Assembly (NCBI RefSeq): GCF_024636815.1
Contig: NZ_JAGXGF010000161.1
Coordinates: 1 to 50,721 of the forward strand
DNA: 50,721 nucleotides
Direction of reading: 5' to 3'
Origin: Marivirga sp.
GTDB taxonomy: Bacteria; Bacteroidota; Bacteroidia; Cytophagales; Cyclobacteriaceae
In this document: positions 3,564 to 11,762 of the stretch, piece by piece
How positions within the stretch are numbered: position 1 is the stretch's first letter
Layout: each line of letters begins with the position of its first letter
Position numbers and translations under genes: made by a program
The notes under the pieces: generated by a model
Told to the model about the DNA's origin: nothing
The model's input: the letters and a program-made list of their open reading frames with translations, nothing else
Databases searched by the model: none

Positions 3564-4964
3564 TTATTGTTTCTTTAAACTCCCAATCATGTCTTCGGGT
3601 TTTACCCATTCATCAAACTCTTCAGCGGTCAAAAATCCTAGGTTAACCGCTTCTTCTTTAAGTCTAGTGCCATTTTCATGGGCAGTCTTAGCAATTTTAG
3701 CGGCTTTTTCGTATCCTATCTTTGTATTTAAAGCGGTAACTAGCATTAAGGAATTATCCAAATGTTCTTTAATTCTCTCATAATTAGGCTCAATTCCAAT
3801 GGCACAATTATCGTTGAAAGAAACACAAGCATCACCAATTAATCGAGCAGATTGCAGGAAGTTGGCAGCCATTACAGGTTTAAAAACATTTAATTCATAA
3901 TGACCTTGCGTCCCGCCTACGGTAATAGCTACATCATTACCCATAACCTGAGCACAAACCATAGTTAAGGCCTCTGCTTGGGTTGGGTTTACTTTTCCCG
4001 GCATAATAGAAGAGCCTGGTTCATTAGCTGGAATAATGATTTCTCCAATCCCCGATCGTGGACCAGAAGCCAATAATCTTATGTCGTTTCCAATTTTATT
4101 TAAAGAAACCGCTATTTGCTTTAATGCTCCATGCGATTCTACAATGGCATCATGAGCCGCTAAAGCTTCAAATTTATTTTCTGCAGTTCTGAAGGGCAAT
4201 CCTGAAAATTCTGCTATTTTCTTAGCGACTAATTCAGAATATCCGTCTGGGGTGTTGATTCCTGTTCCTACTGCTGTTCCCCCCAATGCAATTTCTGAAA
4301 GGTGGTCTAGTGTGTTTTTTAACGCTTTAATGCCGTGATTTAATTGAGACACATAGCCTGAAAATTCCTGACCTATAGTTAATGGAGTAGCATCCATTAA
4401 ATGCGTTCTGCCAATTTTCACAACTTTTTCAAATGCCTTACTTTTCTCATTTAATGTATCCCTTAATTTTTCAATTCCAGGAATTGTTGTCTCGATAACC
4501 ATTTTATAACAAGCAATGTGCATGCCTGTTGGGAAAGTATCATTTGATGACTGAGATTTATTTACATCATCATTAGGATGTACTACTTTTTCATCATCAT
4601 AAGTTTTGCCTGCTAAAATTTGTGCCCTATTCGATACTACCTCGTTTAAATTCATGTTTGACTGTGTACCGGAGCCTGTTTGCCAAATGACCAATGGAAA
4701 TTGATCATTGTGCTGGTTTTCTAAAATCTCATCACAAACTTTAGAGATTAAATCTCTTTTCTCTTGGCTCAAAACGCCTAATTCATGATTTGTGTGAGCT
4801 GCAGCTTTTTTAAGATAAGCGAAGCCTTGAACTATTTCTATAGGCATGCTGGCTTCAGCCCCAATTTTAAAATTATTTCTACTTCTTTCAGTTTGGGCTC
4901 CCCAATACTTATCAGCGGGCACTTTTACATCGCCCATTGTGTCTTTTTCAATCCTATATTCCAT
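3564..4964 (-). CDS. fumC: Class II fumarate hydratase
   Basis: 466 residues, the usual length of the class II (iron-independent) homotetrameric fumarase that interconverts fumarate and malate in the TCA cycle. The fumarase/aspartase signature [11 protein letters not shown] is intact, as are [13 protein letters not shown] and the substrate-loop stretch [14 protein letters not shown]. Aspartase is the closest alternative, but [14 protein letters not shown] and [10 protein letters not shown] fit FumC better. The start ATG begins [16 protein letters not shown], matching family N-termini. It is first in a minus-strand run with the SPOR protein downstream. Confidence 0.95.
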
Positions 4965-5311: not shown

Positions 5312-5558
5312 ACCTAATCCACTCCTTATTTTTTATTTGCTCAGATTCTAGAAAGAAAAAGAATAAGTACTTTAATTAATACCAGATATATCTAATAATC
5401 CATCTCTTAGAATTAATTTTCTTATCAATACCTGATAATTTTCTACAACAATTTTAAAGCAAATAGATGTTTTCACCTCTATTTGCCTTATGACCACTAC
5501 TTAATCCTGCACTTCAAATATTGCTATAGGAGTATTTAAACCTCTTTTTTTGATTTTA
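5312..5558. other. Intergenic stretch with one hairpin, no gene seen
   Basis: No ORF with coding character. GCAAATAG (5459-5466) pairs with CTATTTGC (5479-5486) to form a hairpin with a 12-nt loop and no U-tract. Possibly the transcript end of the small ORF upstream. Confidence 0.4.
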
Positions 5559-5646
5559 TTTAAATCTAATCTAAATAAAGTTGAGTTTTTATTTGTAACC
5601 AATCTAAATAAAATTAATTTTGTGTCATCATTAGAATCAATCTAAA
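5559..5646 (+). promoter_or_regulatory. Three 17-bp TTTAGA-N5-TCTAAA operator-like sites
   Basis: Site 1 at 5559-5575 is TTTAAA-TCTAA-TCTAAA, site 2 at 5592-5608 is TTTGTA-ACCAA-TCTAAA, site 3 at 5630-5646 is ATTAGA-ATCAA-TCTAAA. All share the right half TCTAAA followed by TA, and the 5-nt spacer. Centres are 33 and 38 bp apart. Site 2 covers the -33 box and site 3 covers the expected transcription start, the layout expected of a repressor. Placement before a TonB-receptor operon suggests a metal-responsive Fur- or DtxR-family repressor; that identity is inference. Confidence 0.6.
5593..5622 (+). promoter_or_regulatory. Bacteroidetes sigma-ABfr promoter of the DUF4856-imelysin-HTTM-TonB operon
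   Basis: TTG at 5593-5595, exactly 19 nt, then TAATTTTG at 5615-5622 matches TTG-N19-TAnnTTTG perfectly. Transcription should begin near 5629, giving a leader of about 40 nt before the ATG at 5669. Confidence 0.7.
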
Positions 5647-5668: not shown

Positions 5669-6766
5669 ATGAAAAATATCAAATTATTAGGATTAGCACT
5701 ATTAACAGTTTTTGCCTTTACCGCATGTGACGATGATAACCCGGGAGGAGAAAATGACAAGAATTATGAAATTCCGACAACTTACGATTTTGAAAACGTG
5801 AGCTATTCTGGCCAAACACAGCGTTTGGATATGTTGGATGAATTGACAGTATATATGAAAACAGCAAATAGTGGAGCCGTATTAGATGCTCAAGCGATGT
5901 TAAATATGTATGCTAACGAAAACAATGCTTTTCAAGACGCTTCTTTAAACGAAGCTGATTCAAAAGAATTAGAAAACAAAACAGTTGAAGGAGACATCAG
6001 CATGTTTAAATCTTTCATCAACAATTTTGCTCAGGCTACTATCAATGCAAACGGTGGTGCTGGTAGTAATGGCACAGCAGGTGTTGTAACTTCAAATGAT
6101 GGCGCAAAACAATATTTTTTCGATGCTAACGGATTTGAGCATATCCAATTAATTGAAAAAGGTTTAATGGGATCTTGCTTCTATTTTCAAGGAACTTCAA
6201 TCTATTTAGGTTCCGGTAAAATGGACGTGGATAATGAAACAATTGAAATGGGTAAAGGTACTGCTATGGAGCATCACTGGGACGAGGCTTTTGGTTATTT
6301 AGGTGTACCAACTGATTTTCCTTCCAACACTGACGGAGCTAGATTTTGGGGTAAATATACAAATGGAAGAGATGCATTATTAGGAACAAATGATGCTTTA
6401 ATGACTGCATTCATTAATGGAAGAGCTGCTATTTCAAATAAAGATTTAGATACAAGAGATGAGCAGATTGAAATCATCAGAAACGAATGGGAAAAAGTTT
6501 CAGCAGCAACCGCTGTTCATTATTTGAATGAAGCTAATGCAAACTTCGCTGATGATGCAATTAGAAATCATACTTTATCAGAAGCTTGGGCATTTATTCA
6601 TGCTTTAAAATATAACACAAACAAAAAATTAACCAATGCGGAAGTTGAAACAATTTTACAGCAATTAGGTGAGAATTTCTATGAAATCACTCCCGATAAT
6701 ATCAATGCTGCAAAAACAATCCTTGTCTCAGCTTACGGATTTGAAGATATTCAGGACCAATTATAA
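5669..6766 (+). CDS. DUF4856-family lipoprotein
   Basis: 365 residues with a lipoprotein signal: MKNIKLLGLALLTVFAFTAC, lipobox cysteine at 20, followed by acidic DDDN. The body (IPTTYDFENVSYSGQTQRLDML, and HHWDEAFGYLGVP in the middle) matches the DUF4856 family of Bacteroidetes, which typically lies beside imelysin-like and TonB-receptor genes. No catalytic motif is obvious; conserved His/Trp/Asp residues in the HHWDEAFGY region could bind metal (inference). First gene of the operon, directly behind the promoter and operators at 5559-5646. Confidence 0.8.
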   Translation: MKNIKLLGLALLTVFAFTACDDDNPGGENDKNYEIPTTYDFENVSYSGQTQRLDMLDELTVYMKTANSGAVLDAQAMLNMYANENNAFQDASLNEADSKELENKTVEGDISMFKSFINNFAQATINANGGAGSNGTAGVVTSNDGAKQYFFDANGFEHIQLIEKGLMGSCFYFQGTSIYLGSGKMDVDNETIEMGKGTAMEHHWDEAFGYLGVPTDFPSNTDGARFWGKYTNGRDALLGTNDALMTAFINGRAAISNKDLDTRDEQIEIIRNEWEKVSAATAVHYLNEANANFADDAIRNHTLSEAWAFIHALKYNTNKKLTNAEVETILQQLGENFYEITPDNINAAKTILVSAYGFEDIQDQL

Positions 6767-6783
6767 AAATATGAAATGAGCAT

Positions 6784-6858
6784 AAATATTCAGCAGACGA
6801 AATTATAACATCCGCCTGCTGAATATTTGTAGCAAATTCCATCCCGATAAATACGGGA
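6784..6858 (+). promoter_or_regulatory. Intercistronic hairpins between DUF4856 and imelysin-like genes
   Basis: AAATATTCAGCAG pairs perfectly (13 bp) with CTGCTGAATATTT across about 6784-6829, followed by CCCG-ATAAATA-CGGG near 6844-6858. No U-tract follows, so it is more likely an mRNA-stabilising or processing structure than a terminator. It could allow the first lipoprotein to be made in excess over downstream products. Confidence 0.5.
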
Positions 6859-6893
6859 CAAGTTGTGGCCATTAAAAAGTAAATAATAAACAC

Positions 6894-8009
6894 ATGAAAT
6901 ATTTAAATTTTTCTTTCTTCATACTACTTATATCTACTTTCACTGCCTGCGATAATAAAACAGGCAGTGAAAAAGTAGATTTTGATAGAGAAGCATTCCT
7001 AATCAATATGGCAGATAATGTTATTCAGCCTTCTATTGAGGATTTCGCTTCTAAAGCTGAAGGGCTTAGTGTTGCCACAAACTCTTTTAATATTAACCTT
7101 TCATTAGAAAGCCTAAATGTTCTGAGAGCTGAGCTTAAAGAAACTTGGTTAAGTTACCAACATTTGGCTTTTGTTCATGTAGGGCCTGTTTCTAGTGTTA
7201 ACTTAAGAGACAGAGTCAATATTTTTCCTACTAAAACAGATGTGATTGAAGAAAATATAAATTCTCAAAATTATGTTTTAGGCTCTGCTTCCAATGTAGC
7301 AGCTAAAGGTTTCCCTGCCTTGGATTATATGCTTTTTGGTACTGCAAATACAGATGAGGAAATTTTAGCTTATTTTGGAGACCCAGATTTTGGAGAAAGT
7401 CGATTGAAATATCTTTCTGATTTAGTAGAAGACATTCAAACTACTTCTAATATAATGTCAGAGGGATGGGCTGATTACAGATCGACTTTTATTGGAAATG
7501 TTGGAACTGACGTTGGAAGCGGCACAAGCCTATTAGTTAACGAATATAATTTTCAATTCGACATTAGAATCAAAAATGCTAAAATAGGATTTCCATCCGG
7601 TGGAAACCCTAGAACCGGAGGGGTCCTATCACCTGAAAGTGTAGAAGCATATTTTTCTGGTTGGTCAGGTGATTTAGCTGAGAAAGCTGTACAATCTTCA
7701 ATCGCTGTTTTTAAAGGTGAACATTTTAATTCATCTGAAGATGGACTTGGTTTAGATGATTATTTAAAGGCCTTTGATGCTAAAGATAGAAATGATGATG
7801 CTTTAGCCATGGCAATTATTAGTCAGTCAAACGCTGCTCTCGAAGAAATGGAAAAAATTGAAGTACCATACAGCGAGGTAGCTACTACGGAAGGAAGCCA
7901 ATTGGTAGATGTTTACAATGCTTTGCAAGCAGTTATTCCATTAATTAAAGTAGATATGACTTCTGCTTTATCTGTTTCCATTACTTTCCAAGATAATGAC
8001 GGTGACTAA
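6894..8009 (+). CDS. Imelysin-like (M75/EfeO-type) lipoprotein
   Basis: 371 residues. Signal MKYLNFSFFILLISTFTAC with lipobox cysteine at 19. The helical body has imelysin marks: LKETWLSYQHLAFVHVGPV, NIFPTKTDVIEENI, and KGFPALDYMLFG. In peptidase-like imelysins the last segment holds GxHxxE; here it reads GFPALD, so His and Glu are replaced by Pro and Asp and peptidase activity is doubtful. Imelysin-like proteins are linked to iron uptake in bacteria, which fits the TonB receptor two genes downstream. The 3' end overlaps the HTTM gene by 14 bp, implying coupled translation. Confidence 0.85.
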   Translation: MKYLNFSFFILLISTFTACDNKTGSEKVDFDREAFLINMADNVIQPSIEDFASKAEGLSVATNSFNINLSLESLNVLRAELKETWLSYQHLAFVHVGPVSSVNLRDRVNIFPTKTDVIEENINSQNYVLGSASNVAAKGFPALDYMLFGTANTDEEILAYFGDPDFGESRLKYLSDLVEDIQTTSNIMSEGWADYRSTFIGNVGTDVGSGTSLLVNEYNFQFDIRIKNAKIGFPSGGNPRTGGVLSPESVEAYFSGWSGDLAEKAVQSSIAVFKGEHFNSSEDGLGLDDYLKAFDAKDRNDDALAMAIISQSNAALEEMEKIEVPYSEVATTEGSQLVDVYNALQAVIPLIKVDMTSALSVSITFQDNDGD

Positions 8010-9333
8010 TTGGTTACCCACATATCGATTGAATCAAGCAAAACACATTGCGCCACTAGCTACTTTCCGAGTAGCTTTTGGTGTTATGATGCTTGCCTCC
8101 ATCATCCGCTTTGGGGCCAATGGATGGATAGCTAAGCAATACATCGAACCTGAATTTTATTTTTCTTACTATGGCTTTGAATGGATACAATCCTGGGGCA
8201 ATCCTGGAATGTATATCCTGTTTGCCTTAATGGGAATTGCTGCCATTGGAATTGCTTTAGGAGCATTTTATAAATATAGTGCTAGCCTATTCTTCTTAAG
8301 CTTTACCTACGTAGAACTAATAGACAAAACCAACTACCTCAATCATTACTACTTTGTAAGTATCATTGCTTTTTTATTAATTCTAGTACCGGCAAATAAA
8401 GCGTATTCCGTAGATGCCTGGCGAATGAAAAAGCAAGACTTCTATGTACCGGCATGGAGCATTCATATTATCATTTTGCAATTAAGCCTGGTGTACTTTT
8501 TTGCAGGCTTAGCCAAATTACAATCTGATTGGCTTTTGGAAGCTCTTCCTTTAAAAATTTGGCTCCCATCAAGAGCGGATACTCCAATTATTGGCGCTCT
8601 TTTAGATTATAAATGGACCGCTTACTTTTTCAGTTGGTTCGGAGCATTTTATGATTTAACAATTCCATTTTTCTTGTTGTGGAAAAGAACGAGAGTTTTT
8701 GCTTATTTAACCGTCATTGCTTTTCATTTTATGACTGCTGCACTTTTCCAAATAGGAATGTTCCCATACATCATGGTGGTCAGCACTTTAATCTTTTTCT
8801 CAGAAGATTTTCATAAAAAATTATGGAATAAGCTTTTCCCACAAAGAACACAAGACCTACAAAAATCTATAGCATATTCTAATCCTGCTGTTTTAAAATA
8901 TTTTATAATCCTCTATTTTGGTTTGCAAATACTTTTACCATTTCGTTATACATTATATCCCGGTAAATTATTTTGGACGGAACAAGGCTACAGGTTTTCC
9001 TGGAGAGTAATGCTAATGGAAAAAATGGGATATTCACAATTTACCGTTACTGTTCCTGAGCAAAATAAATCATATGAAGTCTTTCCGAATCAATACTTAA
9101 CCCCGGTTCAGGAAAAAATGATGAATACGCAGCCTGATATGATTTTGCAATTTGCTCACTTTCTAAGAGATAAATATCAAACTGATTTTGATGCTGAGGT
9201 TGAAGTATTTGTAGAAAGTTATGCAGCAGTAAATGGGAAAGGAAGCCGCCCTTTCATCAATCCTGAGGTGAATTTGGCTACAATAGAAAGAGGTTATCAA
9301 CATAAAAACTGGGTTTTACCCTATAATCAATGA
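7996..9333 (+). CDS. HTTM-domain integral membrane protein (gamma-carboxylase-like)
   Basis: 445 residues with several hydrophobic helices in the first two thirds (for example FRVAFGVMMLASII, MYILFALMGIAAIGIALGAF, YYFVSIIAFLLILVP, SIHIIILQLSLVYFFAGLAK) and a soluble C-terminal third of about 130 residues. FFAGLAKLQSDWLL and the layout fit the HTTM (horizontally transferred transmembrane) family related to vitamin K-dependent gamma-glutamyl carboxylase. Bacterial substrates are mostly unknown. ATG at 7996 lies inside the imelysin-like gene, and the stop overlaps the TonB-receptor start, so the three products are probably made together. A role in modifying an operon lipoprotein is speculation. 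Confidence 0.8.
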   Translation: MTVTNWLPTYRLNQAKHIAPLATFRVAFGVMMLASIIRFGANGWIAKQYIEPEFYFSYYGFEWIQSWGNPGMYILFALMGIAAIGIALGAFYKYSASLFFLSFTYVELIDKTNYLNHYYFVSIIAFLLILVPANKAYSVDAWRMKKQDFYVPAWSIHIIILQLSLVYFFAGLAKLQSDWLLEALPLKIWLPSRADTPIIGALLDYKWTAYFFSWFGAFYDLTIPFFLLWKRTRVFAYLTVIAFHFMTAALFQIGMFPYIMVVSTLIFFSEDFHKKLWNKLFPQRTQDLQKSIAYSNPAVLKYFIILYFGLQILLPFRYTLYPGKLFWTEQGYRFSWRVMLMEKMGYSQFTVTVPEQNKSYEVFPNQYLTPVQEKMMNTQPDMILQFAHFLRDKYQTDFDAEVEVFVESYAAVNGKGSRPFINPEVNLATIERGYQHKNWVLPYNQ

Positions 9334-11762
9334 AGAAACAGTATATCCATATTATCATTCTATTGATTAGTATTTTTTCTAATACCCTATATGCTCAGGG
9401 TATAAAAGGAACTGTGACTGATTCCGAAAGCACCAAAGGCATTGAGTTAGCTGAAATTTTCGTATTAGATAGTAAATATAAAACTACTACTGATTCGGAT
9501 GGTAATTATCAATTAACTCTTCCTGCAGGAGAATATAAAATCGCTGCCTTTTACTTAGGAAGGCAGAGTGAGATAAAAAAAATTCAAATCAAAAGAAAAT
9601 GGGAAACTATAGACTTTTCATTGGCACCATTATTTGAAACATTAGAAGAAGTAAAAGCTATTGGCAAAAAATCAGAGGTGTTTAACATCACAAGACTTAA
9701 TCCAGTGGAAGGCACTCTAATTTATGAAGCCAAGAAAAATGAAGTCATTTCCATTGACCAGATAAACGGAAACCTCGCAACAAATAATGCTAGACAAGTT
9801 TTTGCTAAGGTTCCAGGCCTTAATATTTGGGAAAGTGATGGTGGTGGCCTTCAATTAGGAATTGGCGGAAGAGGACTTAATCCCAACAGAACCTCCAATT
9901 TCAATACCAGACAAAACGGATATGATATTTCAGCTGATCCATTAGGCTACCCTGAAAGTTATTATACTCCACCAGTAGAGGCGCTTTCTAAAATTGAAGT
10001 AGTAAGAGGTGCAGCATCTCTTCAATACGGTTCTCAGTTTGGAGGAATGATAAATTTCCTGTTCAAAAAAGCGCCTGAAGAAACCCCTATTCAGTTCCAT
10101 ACCAGAAACACAATAGGTTCCTTTGGTCTATTAAGTTCTTACAATAGTCTTTCAGGCAATACTGAAAAGATGGACTATTTTGTTTTTTATCAAAGAAAGC
10201 AAGGGGATGGGTTTAGAGATAATGAATCCTTTGAATCCAATACTCTATTTGCAGATGTGAATTTTGATATTGGAGATAAGCTTTATCTCTGTTTTGAATT
10301 TACTCACATGGATTATCTTGCTCAACAAGCAGGTGGTTTAACAGATAGAATGTTTGAAGAAGACCCAAGGCAATCTGTAAGAGAGCGTAACTGGTTCGGG
10401 ATCGAATGGAATATCCCTGCGTTAATTTTAGATTATAGAATCAATGATAAAACTAAGCTAAACTGGAAAACTTTTGGATTAATAGGCTCTAGAAAGGCCT
10501 TGGGAAATCTGGAAAGAGTTACCCAAGTTGATTTCCCGGAAGAAGAAAGAAATTTATTGTGGGATGATTACGAGAATTTTGGCTCTGAATTGCGCTTATT
10601 ACACCGTTACGATTTTATGGGTCAAATTCAAGCCTTAGCAGTTGGAGCAAGATATTTTAAAGGAAATACTCAACAGCGTCAAGGCCTGGGGCCTGCCGGA
10701 TATGATGCAGATTTCCAGTATAATAATCCCGATAATTTAGAAGACTTATCATTTCGATACCCTTCAGAAAATGTGGCTCTATTCGCAGAAAACATCATTA
10801 ATATTAACAGTAAATTGAGTATAACTCCAGGTTTGAGATGGGAATATATTAGTACAAACAGCACAGGATATTACCGAAACATGGTGGAGGATTTAGCTGG
10901 AAATGTCATTTTTGATACCACCATCAATGAATCTAAGAATTTAGATCGTTCCTTTATGCTTGCAGGATTAGGTGTTAGCTATAAAACTCCAGCAGATTTA
11001 GAAGTATATGGAAATATCTCTATGAACTATAGAGGTATTAATTTTAATGATTTAAGAGTTAATAATACCAACATATTAGTCGATCCAAACTTACAGGATG
11101 AAAGTGGTTATAATGCCGATTTGGGGTTCAGAGGAAACTACAGCGACTTCCTAAATTTTGATTGGAGCTTATTCTATTTAGCCTATAATGATAGATTAGG
11201 TGCTTTACTAAGATATGATGATGCAATTGACGGCTTTCCAAGAATTTATCGATATAGAACAAATGTCGGAAATGCGGCCATAGCCGGAGTAGAATCTTAT
11301 ACAGAAATGAATTGGAGCAAATTCTTTAATCCTCAACCTATTCATGAATTTTCCACTTTCCTAAATGCAGCTTTCATCAGAGGCCGTTATGGAGAAGACA
11401 ATATGGAAAGTTCAATTGCTGGAAATAAAGTGGAATTGGTTCCAGATGTGAATATCAAAACAGGTATTAACTATAATTGGAAAAGCTTCTCTTCCACTTT
11501 ACAATTCACCTATTTAAGCGAGCAATTTACAGAGGCCACTAATGCGAAAAGAACAGCCACTGGAGTAGATGGTATTATTCCTGCTTTCCATGTCTTGGAT
11601 TTAAGTGCCAAATACAAATATAAATTTGCTCAACTGGAAGCGGGTATCAATAACTTAACCAACAATTATTATTTTACCAGAAGAGCAACAGGTTATCCTG
11701 GCCCAGGCATTATTCCTTCAGCAGGAAGAAATTTTTATGTGACTCTTGATTTAAAGTTTTAA
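9330..11762 (+). CDS. TonB-dependent outer-membrane receptor, FecA-like, with carboxypeptidase-regulatory-like domain
   Basis: 810 residues. Sec signal ends near residue 23 (SNTLYAQG). Residues about 24-98 form a carboxypeptidase-regulatory-like beta-sandwich (IKGTVTDSESTKGIELAEIF) common in Bacteroidetes receptors. The plug follows, with RQVFAKVPGLNIWE, GIGGRGLNPNRTSNF and IEVVRGAASLQYGSQFGGMI, then a 22-strand-type barrel ending YVTLDLKF with a terminal aromatic. The plug style resembles ferric dicitrate receptors; the ligand is not shown by sequence. Last gene of the operon; its ATG overlaps the HTTM stop by 4 bp (ATGA). Confidence 0.93.
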   Translation: MKKQYIHIIILLISIFSNTLYAQGIKGTVTDSESTKGIELAEIFVLDSKYKTTTDSDGNYQLTLPAGEYKIAAFYLGRQSEIKKIQIKRKWETIDFSLAPLFETLEEVKAIGKKSEVFNITRLNPVEGTLIYEAKKNEVISIDQINGNLATNNARQVFAKVPGLNIWESDGGGLQLGIGGRGLNPNRTSNFNTRQNGYDISADPLGYPESYYTPPVEALSKIEVVRGAASLQYGSQFGGMINFLFKKAPEETPIQFHTRNTIGSFGLLSSYNSLSGNTEKMDYFVFYQRKQGDGFRDNESFESNTLFADVNFDIGDKLYLCFEFTHMDYLAQQAGGLTDRMFEEDPRQSVRERNWFGIEWNIPALILDYRINDKTKLNWKTFGLIGSRKALGNLERVTQVDFPEEERNLLWDDYENFGSELRLLHRYDFMGQIQALAVGARYFKGNTQQRQGLGPAGYDADFQYNNPDNLEDLSFRYPSENVALFAENIININSKLSITPGLRWEYISTNSTGYYRNMVEDLAGNVIFDTTINESKNLDRSFMLAGLGVSYKTPADLEVYGNISMNYRGINFNDLRVNNTNILVDPNLQDESGYNADLGFRGNYSDFLNFDWSLFYLAYNDRLGALLRYDDAIDGFPRIYRYRTNVGNAAIAGVESYTEMNWSKFFNPQPIHEFSTFLNAAFIRGRYGEDNMESSIAGNKVELVPDVNIKTGINYNWKSFSSTLQFTYLSEQFTEATNAKRTATGVDGIIPAFHVLDLSAKYKYKFAQLEAGINNLTNNYYFTRRATGYPGPGIIPSAGRNFYVTLDLKF

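Follow-up and report, generated by a model that had tools for sequence, protein, structure and literature searches.

Among the closest described relatives of the locus reported here is the imelysin operon ICMP-DHOR-IPPA, which is under Fur control (PA4370-PA4373; Xu et al. 2011, PMC3143127); recombinant IPPA and PIBO are described, in the portion of that paper available, as showing no specific haem or ferric ion binding by thermofluor (PMC3143127). In Riemerella anatipestifer, four genes with consecutive tags (RAYM_09779-09794), namely a TonB receptor, a VKGC, an imelysin and a hypothetical gene, are tabulated as iron-repressed, with wild-type -Fe/+Fe values of 2.11-3.07 (PMC5609570, Table 4). 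Their iron response persists without fur (2.70-3.07), and the Fur gel shifts in the available part of that study were done on promoters other than the cassette's (PMC5609570). For vitamin K gamma-carboxylase, we take the residue roles (base, Glu site and quinone contacts) from PMC12589487.

The window, by which we mean the whole stretch of 50,721 nucleotides from Marivirga sp. that was analysed, carries a related set of genes in a different combination (Table 1). The four open reading frames of the initial annotation were confirmed in position and strand, as were the two overlaps, of 14 bp between the imelysin and HTTM genes and of 4 bp between the HTTM and receptor genes; a gap of 127 bp lies at the first junction. 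A single operon is supported. The calling of two lipoproteins was likewise upheld, as a lipobox-like Cys is invariant in both of the 38-sequence cassette alignments. The first gap region (6764-6893) has a hairpin z score of -4.5 against dinucleotide shuffles, and among the 71 cassettes whose gap is at least 40 nt, 63 have a z of -2 or lower against mononucleotide shuffles; of 113 loci, 22 were left out of this count for want of a clear start, and 20 of the remaining 91 for a gap of less than 40 nt.

Table 1. Features of the four-gene cassette in the Marivirga sp. window
Feature	Position	Strand	Description
DUF4856 lipoprotein gene	5669-6766	+	365 aa; Pfam DUF4856 5.8e-47; lipobox ..FTAC; all-helical model
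IPPA-type imelysin lipoprotein gene	6894-8009	+	371 aa; Pfam Peptidase_M75/imelysin 2e-20; GFPALDY replaces GxHxxE; C-terminus ...DNDGD
VKGC-type integral membrane enzyme gene	7996-9333	+	445 aa; Pfam HTTM 1e-83 + VKGC_lumenal_dom 1.1e-51; K/N/H catalytic residues retained
TonB-dependent receptor gene	9330-11762	+	810 aa; TonB barrel + plug + CarbopepD_reg_2 (N-terminal); cassette-specific plug motif
Candidate Fur-type box ATTTAAATCTAATCTAAAT	5558-5576	+	upstream of cassette; 15/19 to Riemerella Fur box
Intercistronic RNA hairpin, stem ~17 pairs	6780-6833	+	between DUF4856 and imelysin genes; z score vs shuffles

This four-gene cassette is carried by many Bacteroidota. Of the 51 loci around VKGC matches in a sample of 198 genomes, 37 have all four genes in order, and so do 76 of a further set of 80 named loci (the best 80, most like the window enzyme, counting matches on the + strand only). 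Starting from the DUF4856 side, 31 of 33 genomes with a match also have one to VKGC, on the same contig and at most about 3.5 kb away, as counted by eye. The order is thus kept far beyond chance. The initial annotation had allowed that its proposal would fall if the four families did not co-occur elsewhere; they do, so that half of the objection fails. There was no constant fifth gene to be seen, the commonest flanking family occurring in 25 of 113 loci. The cassette alignments, and the counts that follow from them, cover loci with all four genes. We found no description of the cassette in the literature searched, and the initial statement that no characterised pathway combines these families holds there for mechanism; it does not hold for the genes as such, given the iron-repressed receptor, VKGC, imelysin and hypothetical gene of the Riemerella table (PMC5609570).

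The cassette is apparently iron-regulated, to judge from a conserved Fur-type box. In the window the upstream box is the best site (taken by itself, the window gives p = 0.06 against shuffles), and 34 of 38 cassettes have an upstream box with p <= 0.05 against shuffles. A box matching at least 15 of 19 positions precedes DUF4856 in 32 of 35 cassettes, compared with 14 of 266 unlabelled neighbouring open reading frames (Fisher p about 1e-28); in the same loci it precedes 6 of 38 imelysin, none of 36 VKGC and none of 42 receptor frames. This survey used a greedy list, in which frames that overlapped were discarded and each frame began at its first start codon; frames with less than 250 bp upstream were dropped from it. 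Within its own genome, the window box is among the three best matches (two mismatches) to the cassette-type consensus. Because the count there (26 matches, as against 41 in the reversed control) is not above control, the support for the box rests on the comparison across species; four other matches (L095, L106, L107 and L113) had no obvious iron genes nearby by reading. Control by iron is backed by the conserved box and by the iron-repressed genes of the Riemerella table (PMC5609570, Table 4). Iron acquisition is well supported, and the acquisition system first suggested for this locus is likely.

The membrane enzyme had been called gamma-carboxylase-like, and this proved sound. In sequence the HTTM protein is homologous to VKGC, matching the Pfam HTTM and VKGC lumenal domains at 281 and 175 bits (curated cut-offs 27.7 each) and human GGCX at 3.7e-38 by phmmer. 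The human catalytic residues are conserved: the base K218 (K174 in the window) and the Glu-site residues N159 and H160 are invariant in the window and in all 39 cassette VKGCs, as are, in those 39, the ring contacts W223, F286, F294 and F299 together with A214 and G259, with V210 kept in 38. The position of human Y395 is Y in 30 and F in nine, human N158, K217, M401, N290 and R436 are not retained, and the isoprenyl-tunnel residues V254, V255 and G258 are variable. The bacterial enzyme ends by about human residue 504, so that part of the propeptide-binding domain is absent. A vitamin K cycle through VKOR was rejected, as VKOR shows no association with VKGC genomes (nine of 46, against 32 of 152 others; p = 1), and none was found in the window's own genome (88% complete). 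The VKOR cycle is a feature of the animal system and not a strict requirement of the enzyme family.

VKGC homologues also occur on their own. One of them (L066) lies between the genes for FAD synthetase/riboflavin kinase and seryl-tRNA synthetase, and the idea that such solitary homologues form a second cassette was dropped, no partner being found at this locus. Their existence would suit a reading in which the linkage is an iron-regulated convenience and the enzyme an epoxidase or of unrelated function, with no role in uptake, as would a Leptospira VKGC homologue that is reportedly altered in carboxylation. We consider this quite improbable, however, as the cassette-type VKGC is set apart from the solitary homologues by identity, though not by a tree (11 of 12 are 34-41% identical to the nearest cassette enzyme), and pairs one to one with IPPA across genomes, also where the two genes are unlinked.

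This co-occurrence makes the IPPA imelysin, by gene content, the steadiest partner of the VKGC-type enzyme. By hand count, the genomes with IPPA and those with cassette-type VKGC are the same 41 of the 198; in 40 of them the two genes are linked or lie on a contig that is cut. G108 has a VKGC that stands alone behind a box and shares 70% identity with a cassette VKGC; its IPPA is in a DHOR operon, and it has no DUF4856 match and no cassette receptor. An 11-kb plasmid stretch of Persicobacter (L215) has imelysin, DHOR, IPPA and VKGC in a row, with DUF4856 and cassette receptor absent from that stretch; in three other split cassettes the IPPA is elsewhere in the genome.

The neighbourhoods of the other imelysins raise a further reading, to which we give a low probability: that the enzyme works as a redox partner linked to menaquinol, such as a ferric reductase, which replaces the DHOR of classical imelysin operons and carries out no carboxylation. 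All 13 non-IPPA imelysins in the sample adjoin DHOR (GxHxxE was seen in 11 of the 13, the narrow pattern giving none in G007 and G126; one PF09375 match below cut-off, G105:C3, was disregarded), whereas the cassettes have VKGC by IPPA instead and the window's own genome has no DHOR match. The conserved quinone ring contacts and the want of a VKOR link would also fit. Yet because Persicobacter has both in one row, DHOR and VKGC are not simple substitutes, and the conserved Glu-binding N159/H160 and base K218 point to chemistry of the carboxylase type.

The window imelysin has the imelysin fold (Z 33.5, 31.9 and 31.1 to 7xrx, 4ecg and 3pf0; rmsd 2.4-2.6 over 300-320 aligned residues). It is without the GxHxxE motif of the ICMP/IrpA families: the motif His is lost, with Pro there as in IPPA, and the Glu of GxxxxE is Asp, as in other cassette imelysins save some with Glu or Gly. 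The suggestion that a lipoprotein Glu is carboxylated to make metal ligands found no support in residue conservation or gene content: in neither IPPA nor DUF4856 is there a conserved Glu specific to the cassette, and VKOR shows no co-occurrence; the conserved acids of both are shared with the few homologues without neighbouring VKGC that served as outgroups (only two for DUF4856 and three for IPPA). The C-terminal DGD tail was weakened as a VKGC-specific substrate tag, since it also ends IPPAs outside VKGC operons, in Psychrobacter (3pf0), in Shinella (no VKGC match on the plasmid, the only part searched) and in three Bacteroidota DHOR loci (L127-L129), whose genomes (G108, G187 and G182) do have a cassette-type VKGC. 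Tails were read in all of the 41 IPPA genomes but G079 and G136.

The DUF4856 lipoprotein has acidic residues after the lipobox Cys (in a survey that omits seven of 114 sequences without an aligned Cys) and is probably surface-exposed. Its predicted model had no Foldseek match at E <= 0.001, and the best VIA-align 2 match, a catenin M domain at Z 7.9, may reflect a mere common helical arrangement. That it might be a divergent or circularly permuted imelysin, an idea prompted by the stretch EHHWDEAFGYLG, found no support: hhalign aligned only the signal peptide, or gave P 0.17; searching the PDB by profile gave no match up to E 10, and there was no imelysin among the 50 matches listed in the fold comparison.

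The receptor had been termed FecA-like, a label that fits only loosely, as it scores 96 bits with the NCBIfam FecA model NF041676 (cut-off 1100); among solved proteins, sequence comparison at E <= 0.001 relates it to YncD/PqqU alone (3.5e-8). It has many cassette-specific conserved residues that are absent from seven other receptors, acids included (E209 in 112 of 114 and E702 in 108 of 114), and by the criterion of conserved acids it is therefore as good a substrate candidate as the lipoproteins. With mean pairwise identities of 0.54 and 0.49, enzyme and receptor are also the most conserved parts of the cassette, against 0.36 and 0.36 for the two lipoproteins (two of the 114 receptors are omitted, as they fall below about 500 residues). 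These features, together with the lack of a Glu target that stands out in the lipoproteins, would agree with an enzyme that acts on an imported small molecule such as an iron-chelating ligand, on its release, or on the receptor, and not on a lipoprotein. We think this unlikely, as both G108 and the Persicobacter plasmid stretch keep enzyme and IPPA without the cassette receptor.

The reading that we favour, and that we see as evenly poised between right and wrong, is an iron-uptake cassette in which a menaquinol-using VKGC-type enzyme acts with, and perhaps on, the IPPA lipoprotein, most likely by carboxylation. The four genes would together serve Bacteroidota and relatives as a single envelope uptake system that responds to iron, in which the TonB receptor would carry an iron ligand across the outer membrane, while the DUF4856 lipoprotein and the IPPA-type imelysin would capture iron or pass it on. 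The HTTM protein would be an inner-membrane, menaquinol-using member of the vitamin K gamma-carboxylase family, with a presumably periplasmic active site, and would use reduced menaquinone, O2 and CO2 to produce a carboxylated acidic residue, a hard-oxygen iron ligand, on an envelope partner, most likely the IPPA. In its fullest form, menaquinone (vitamin K2)-dependent protein carboxylation in Bacteroidota, with an iron-regulated VKGC modifying an acidic residue or the invariant DGD tail of IPPA to give an iron site for TonB-dependent uptake, the proposal is possible but doubtful; if true, vitamin K-dependent carboxylation has a role outside animals, in metal acquisition. For a widespread cassette this provides a class of function (iron uptake), a defined enzyme whose catalytic residues are intact and a partner that can be named, and the role of bacterial vitamin K carboxylase homologues can be tested directly in Bacteroidota that grow in culture. 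The proposal may also be relevant to the lack of a known ligand for IPPA-type imelysins in the account available (PMC3143127).

Compared with known systems, the window enzyme resembles human GGCX in the homology of its HTTM and lumenal domains, in the catalytic base, in N159/H160 and in most of the ring-contacting quinone residues, but has 445 residues where GGCX has 758. HmuYR-type systems pair a surface lipoprotein with a TonB receptor for an iron-containing ligand; that pairing is common to both, but HmuYR has no membrane enzyme or imelysin. In MbnP/MbnH-type systems an enzyme modifies a metal-binding partner, the metal being copper; the idea of an enzyme-made metal site on a partner is shared, whereas the enzyme family is different and the metal is not iron. 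Riemerella RAYM_09779-09794 is apparently the same cassette, compared by its table entries and with the hypothetical gene not equated with DUF4856; it is there a table listing, with no mechanism given in the part of the paper available (PMC5609570). With the ICMP-DHOR-IPPA operon, as far as the available description goes, the cassette has in common an IPPA-family protein in which Pro takes the place of the motif His and whose solved member ends in DGD, as well as iron-regulated envelope proteins (PMC3143127), but the usual cassette has DUF4856, VKGC and the receptor in place of ICMP and DHOR. The Persicobacter locus is a hybrid, of the ICMP-DHOR-IPPA type with VKGC added.

The four genes of the candidate acquisition operon lie exactly where the initial annotation had placed them, as an ORF check of the window showed. 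Pfam assigns their products to DUF4856, imelysin, HTTM together with the lumenal domain of vitamin K-dependent gamma-carboxylase (VKGC; GGCX in humans), and TonB receptor, the last with an N-terminal carboxypeptidase-like domain. The HTTM and VKGC lumenal domains together make most of the third protein homologous to vitamin K-dependent carboxylase; the protein's closest named locus among the matches listed is that of Marivirga sericea (83% identity), which makes a relative of that genus the probable source of the window. The genome holding the window (88% complete) has one HTTM match, one imelysin match, and no match to VKOR, the partner enzyme of the animal vitamin K cycle, or to di-haem oxidoreductase (DHOR).

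Features of the cassette and its surroundings in the window
Feature	Positions	Strand	Remarks
Upstream gene	3564-4964	-	Fumarase-like by eye; one relative in the loci taken for comparison (L088)
Fur-type box	5558-5576		19 positions
DUF4856 lipoprotein	5669-6766	+	
RNA hairpin	6780-6833		DUF4856-imelysin gap; z -4.5
Imelysin lipoprotein (IPPA type)	6894-8009	+	
VKGC-type HTTM enzyme	7996-9333	+	
TonB receptor	9330-11762	+	

That these families belong together, as first proposed, is borne out by gene neighbourhoods elsewhere. A phylum-wide sample of 198 genomes had the VKGC lumenal domain in 46 and DUF4856 in 33, with the two close together in 31 of the latter (counted by eye; Fisher p ~1e-22 for genome co-occurrence). 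The loci examined were the 51 surrounding every VKGC match beyond the window itself and, in addition, two with DUF4856 but no VKGC; each was scanned with profiles built up from the proteins of the window. The full same-strand order DUF4856-imelysin-VKGC-receptor was found in 37 of the 51; one locus had no recognised DUF4856 (L071), one was cut by a contig end (L081) and 12 had no cassette partner. In named genomes the full cassette was present at 76 of 80 loci, a set biased to window-like enzymes because it comprises the best 80 of 571 relatives listed. One of the four exceptions had no recognised DUF4856 (L146), and the others (L164, L191, L140) are split cassettes, all three with the imelysin elsewhere in the genome, where it adjoins the receptor in two Roseivirga genomes and DUF4856 in two of the three. 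Genes flanking the cassette vary between loci. One Roseivirga genome (G198; L164 and L228) has two DUF4856 genes, one in each half of its split cassette. DUF4856 also occurs without nearby VKGC or imelysin at L091 and L092, the latter copy adjoining a TonB receptor.

The cassette probably serves iron uptake. A study of the Fur regulon in Riemerella anatipestifer lists four consecutively tagged genes as iron-responsive (PMC5609570). They are annotated as TonB receptor (wild-type -Fe/+Fe ratio 2.11), vitamin K-dependent gamma-carboxylase (2.64), imelysin lipoprotein (3.07) and hypothetical protein (2.41). On these data the four genes depend only partly on Fur, since deleting fur leaves the iron response in place (2.70-3.07) and fur has little effect in iron-rich medium (1.36-1.93). 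Of the 35 cassettes for which 250 bp of DNA ahead of DUF4856 was available, 32 match the Fur box reported there, ATTTAGAATTATTCTAAAT, at no fewer than 15 of 19 positions; for other ORFs in the same loci the tally was 14/266 unlabelled ORFs (some of these 14 probably sharing the same intergenic DNA), 6/38 imelysin, 0/36 VKGC and 0/42 receptor genes. Against shuffled sequence, 34 of 38 cassettes reached p<=0.05. For the window alone p was 0.06; its box is one of the three best matches in its genome, where a genome-wide search found no overall excess of box-type sites. Of the six split-cassette halves inspected, five have a box (14-17/19) shortly upstream; before VKGC at L140 none was seen. For imelysin genes at large, irrespective of this cassette, two that lie three tags apart in Tenacibaculum maritimum have been given a possible role in iron acquisition (PMC5561996), and an imelysin-like gene is reported among the most down-regulated in a Bizionia iron-homeostasis regulator mutant (PMC9478572). 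In the open-access literature that we searched, neither the cassette nor a mechanism for it was found described.

The window enzyme's solved relatives were of one kind only, human GGCX (3.7e-38). With residue roles from a 2025 cryo-EM paper (PMC12589487; human numbering), the base K218 and Glu-site N159 and H160 are invariant in 39/39 cassette enzymes, as are quinone contacts F286, F294, F299, W223, A214 and G259 (V210 in 38/39); H287, W390 and W399, for which no such role was taken, are invariant as well. Y395 is Tyr in 30 and Phe in nine; N158 is always Leu, K217 Ala, N290 Thr and M401 Val, R436 is mostly Gln, and the isoprenyl-tunnel positions V254, V255 and G258 vary. The alignment stops near human residue 504, which leaves the enzyme without part of the propeptide-binding domain. 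With catalytic and quinone residues kept and that part missing, the chemistry looks intact and substrate recognition different, judged from alignment. From the general biology of Bacteroidota, menaquinone would be the cofactor. Solitary VKGC homologues with a gene of ~308 aa upstream occur at L066, L067, L072, L074, L075, L083 and L084, that of L066 lying between FAD synthetase/riboflavin kinase and seryl-tRNA synthetase genes; human Y395 is His in 11 of 12 non-cassette enzymes.

Several observations speak against carboxylation of a protein. No Glu or Asp was conserved solely in the cassette in DUF4856 or IPPA (two and three outgroups, respectively); D205 and E305 of DUF4856, and E251, D369 and D371 of IPPA, occur in those outgroups as well. 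The receptor has cassette-specific acids, such as E209 and E702, missing from seven other receptors, and is thus a possible carboxylation target. Enzyme and receptor are the most conserved (mean identity 0.54 and 0.49; both lipoproteins 0.36), and VKOR occurrence does not track VKGC across the 198 genomes. We accordingly regard iron uptake as well supported, lean slightly towards carboxylase-type quinol chemistry, and place low confidence in IPPA as the substrate.

Acidic residues after the lipoprotein Cys are a surface-export signal in Bacteroidota. At least two at +2 to +6 were found in 83 of 107 DUF4856 proteins and 50 of 114 imelysins, a signal that on sequence grounds fits DUF4856 better. 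DUF4856 was modelled with high confidence (pLDDT 91.8), and fold comparison matched the model to no known fold. Among the 71 cassettes whose DUF4856-imelysin gap spans at least 40 nt, 63 share a hairpin with z<=-2 (median z -4.2; slightly lenient, being from mononucleotide shuffles); it may let DUF4856 be produced in excess of the other cassette proteins.

The window imelysin is modelled with an imelysin fold (pLDDT 92.5) and has GFPALDY at the position of the canonical GxHxxE, with Pro for the His and Asp for the Glu. Cassette imelysins end in DGD (38/38, and 77/77 in named loci); in the window model this tail has no secondary structure (mean pLDDT 76 for residues 361-370, 54 for residue 371). 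The solved Psychrobacter IPPA (3pf0) also ends in DGD; it carries Pro at the motif His position, and its last six residues show no order in the crystal (PMC3143127). This common tail, with Pro for the motif His, places the window imelysin with the IPPA type, known from ICMP-DHOR-IPPA operons. Present as well in L127-L129 of Bacteroidota and, outside that phylum, in Psychrobacter and Shinella L213, the DGD end seems to characterise IPPA-type imelysins in general. Non-IPPA imelysins, unlike that of the cassette, adjoin a DHOR gene (13/13 of the sample).

Of the 198 genomes, 41 carry a cassette-type VKGC, and these are the very ones with IPPA (tallied by hand); in 40 of them the two genes are linked or lie on a truncated contig, so the cases are not independent. 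Unlinked and rearranged cases point to IPPA as the enzyme's steadiest partner. In genome G108 a cassette-type VKGC (70% identity to a cassette enzyme) stands alone with its own box (16/19), and IPPA sits in a DHOR operon; a genome search gave no DUF4856 match, and the best receptor match (1.5e-8) was not a cassette receptor. In the Shinella operon DUF1513 follows in place of VKGC, and the stretch has no VKGC. A Persicobacter psychrovividus plasmid (L215, 1198-6311; the plasmid only was covered) carries imelysin-DHOR-IPPA-VKGC in a single row, a hybrid of the classical imelysin operon and a vitamin K-type enzyme.
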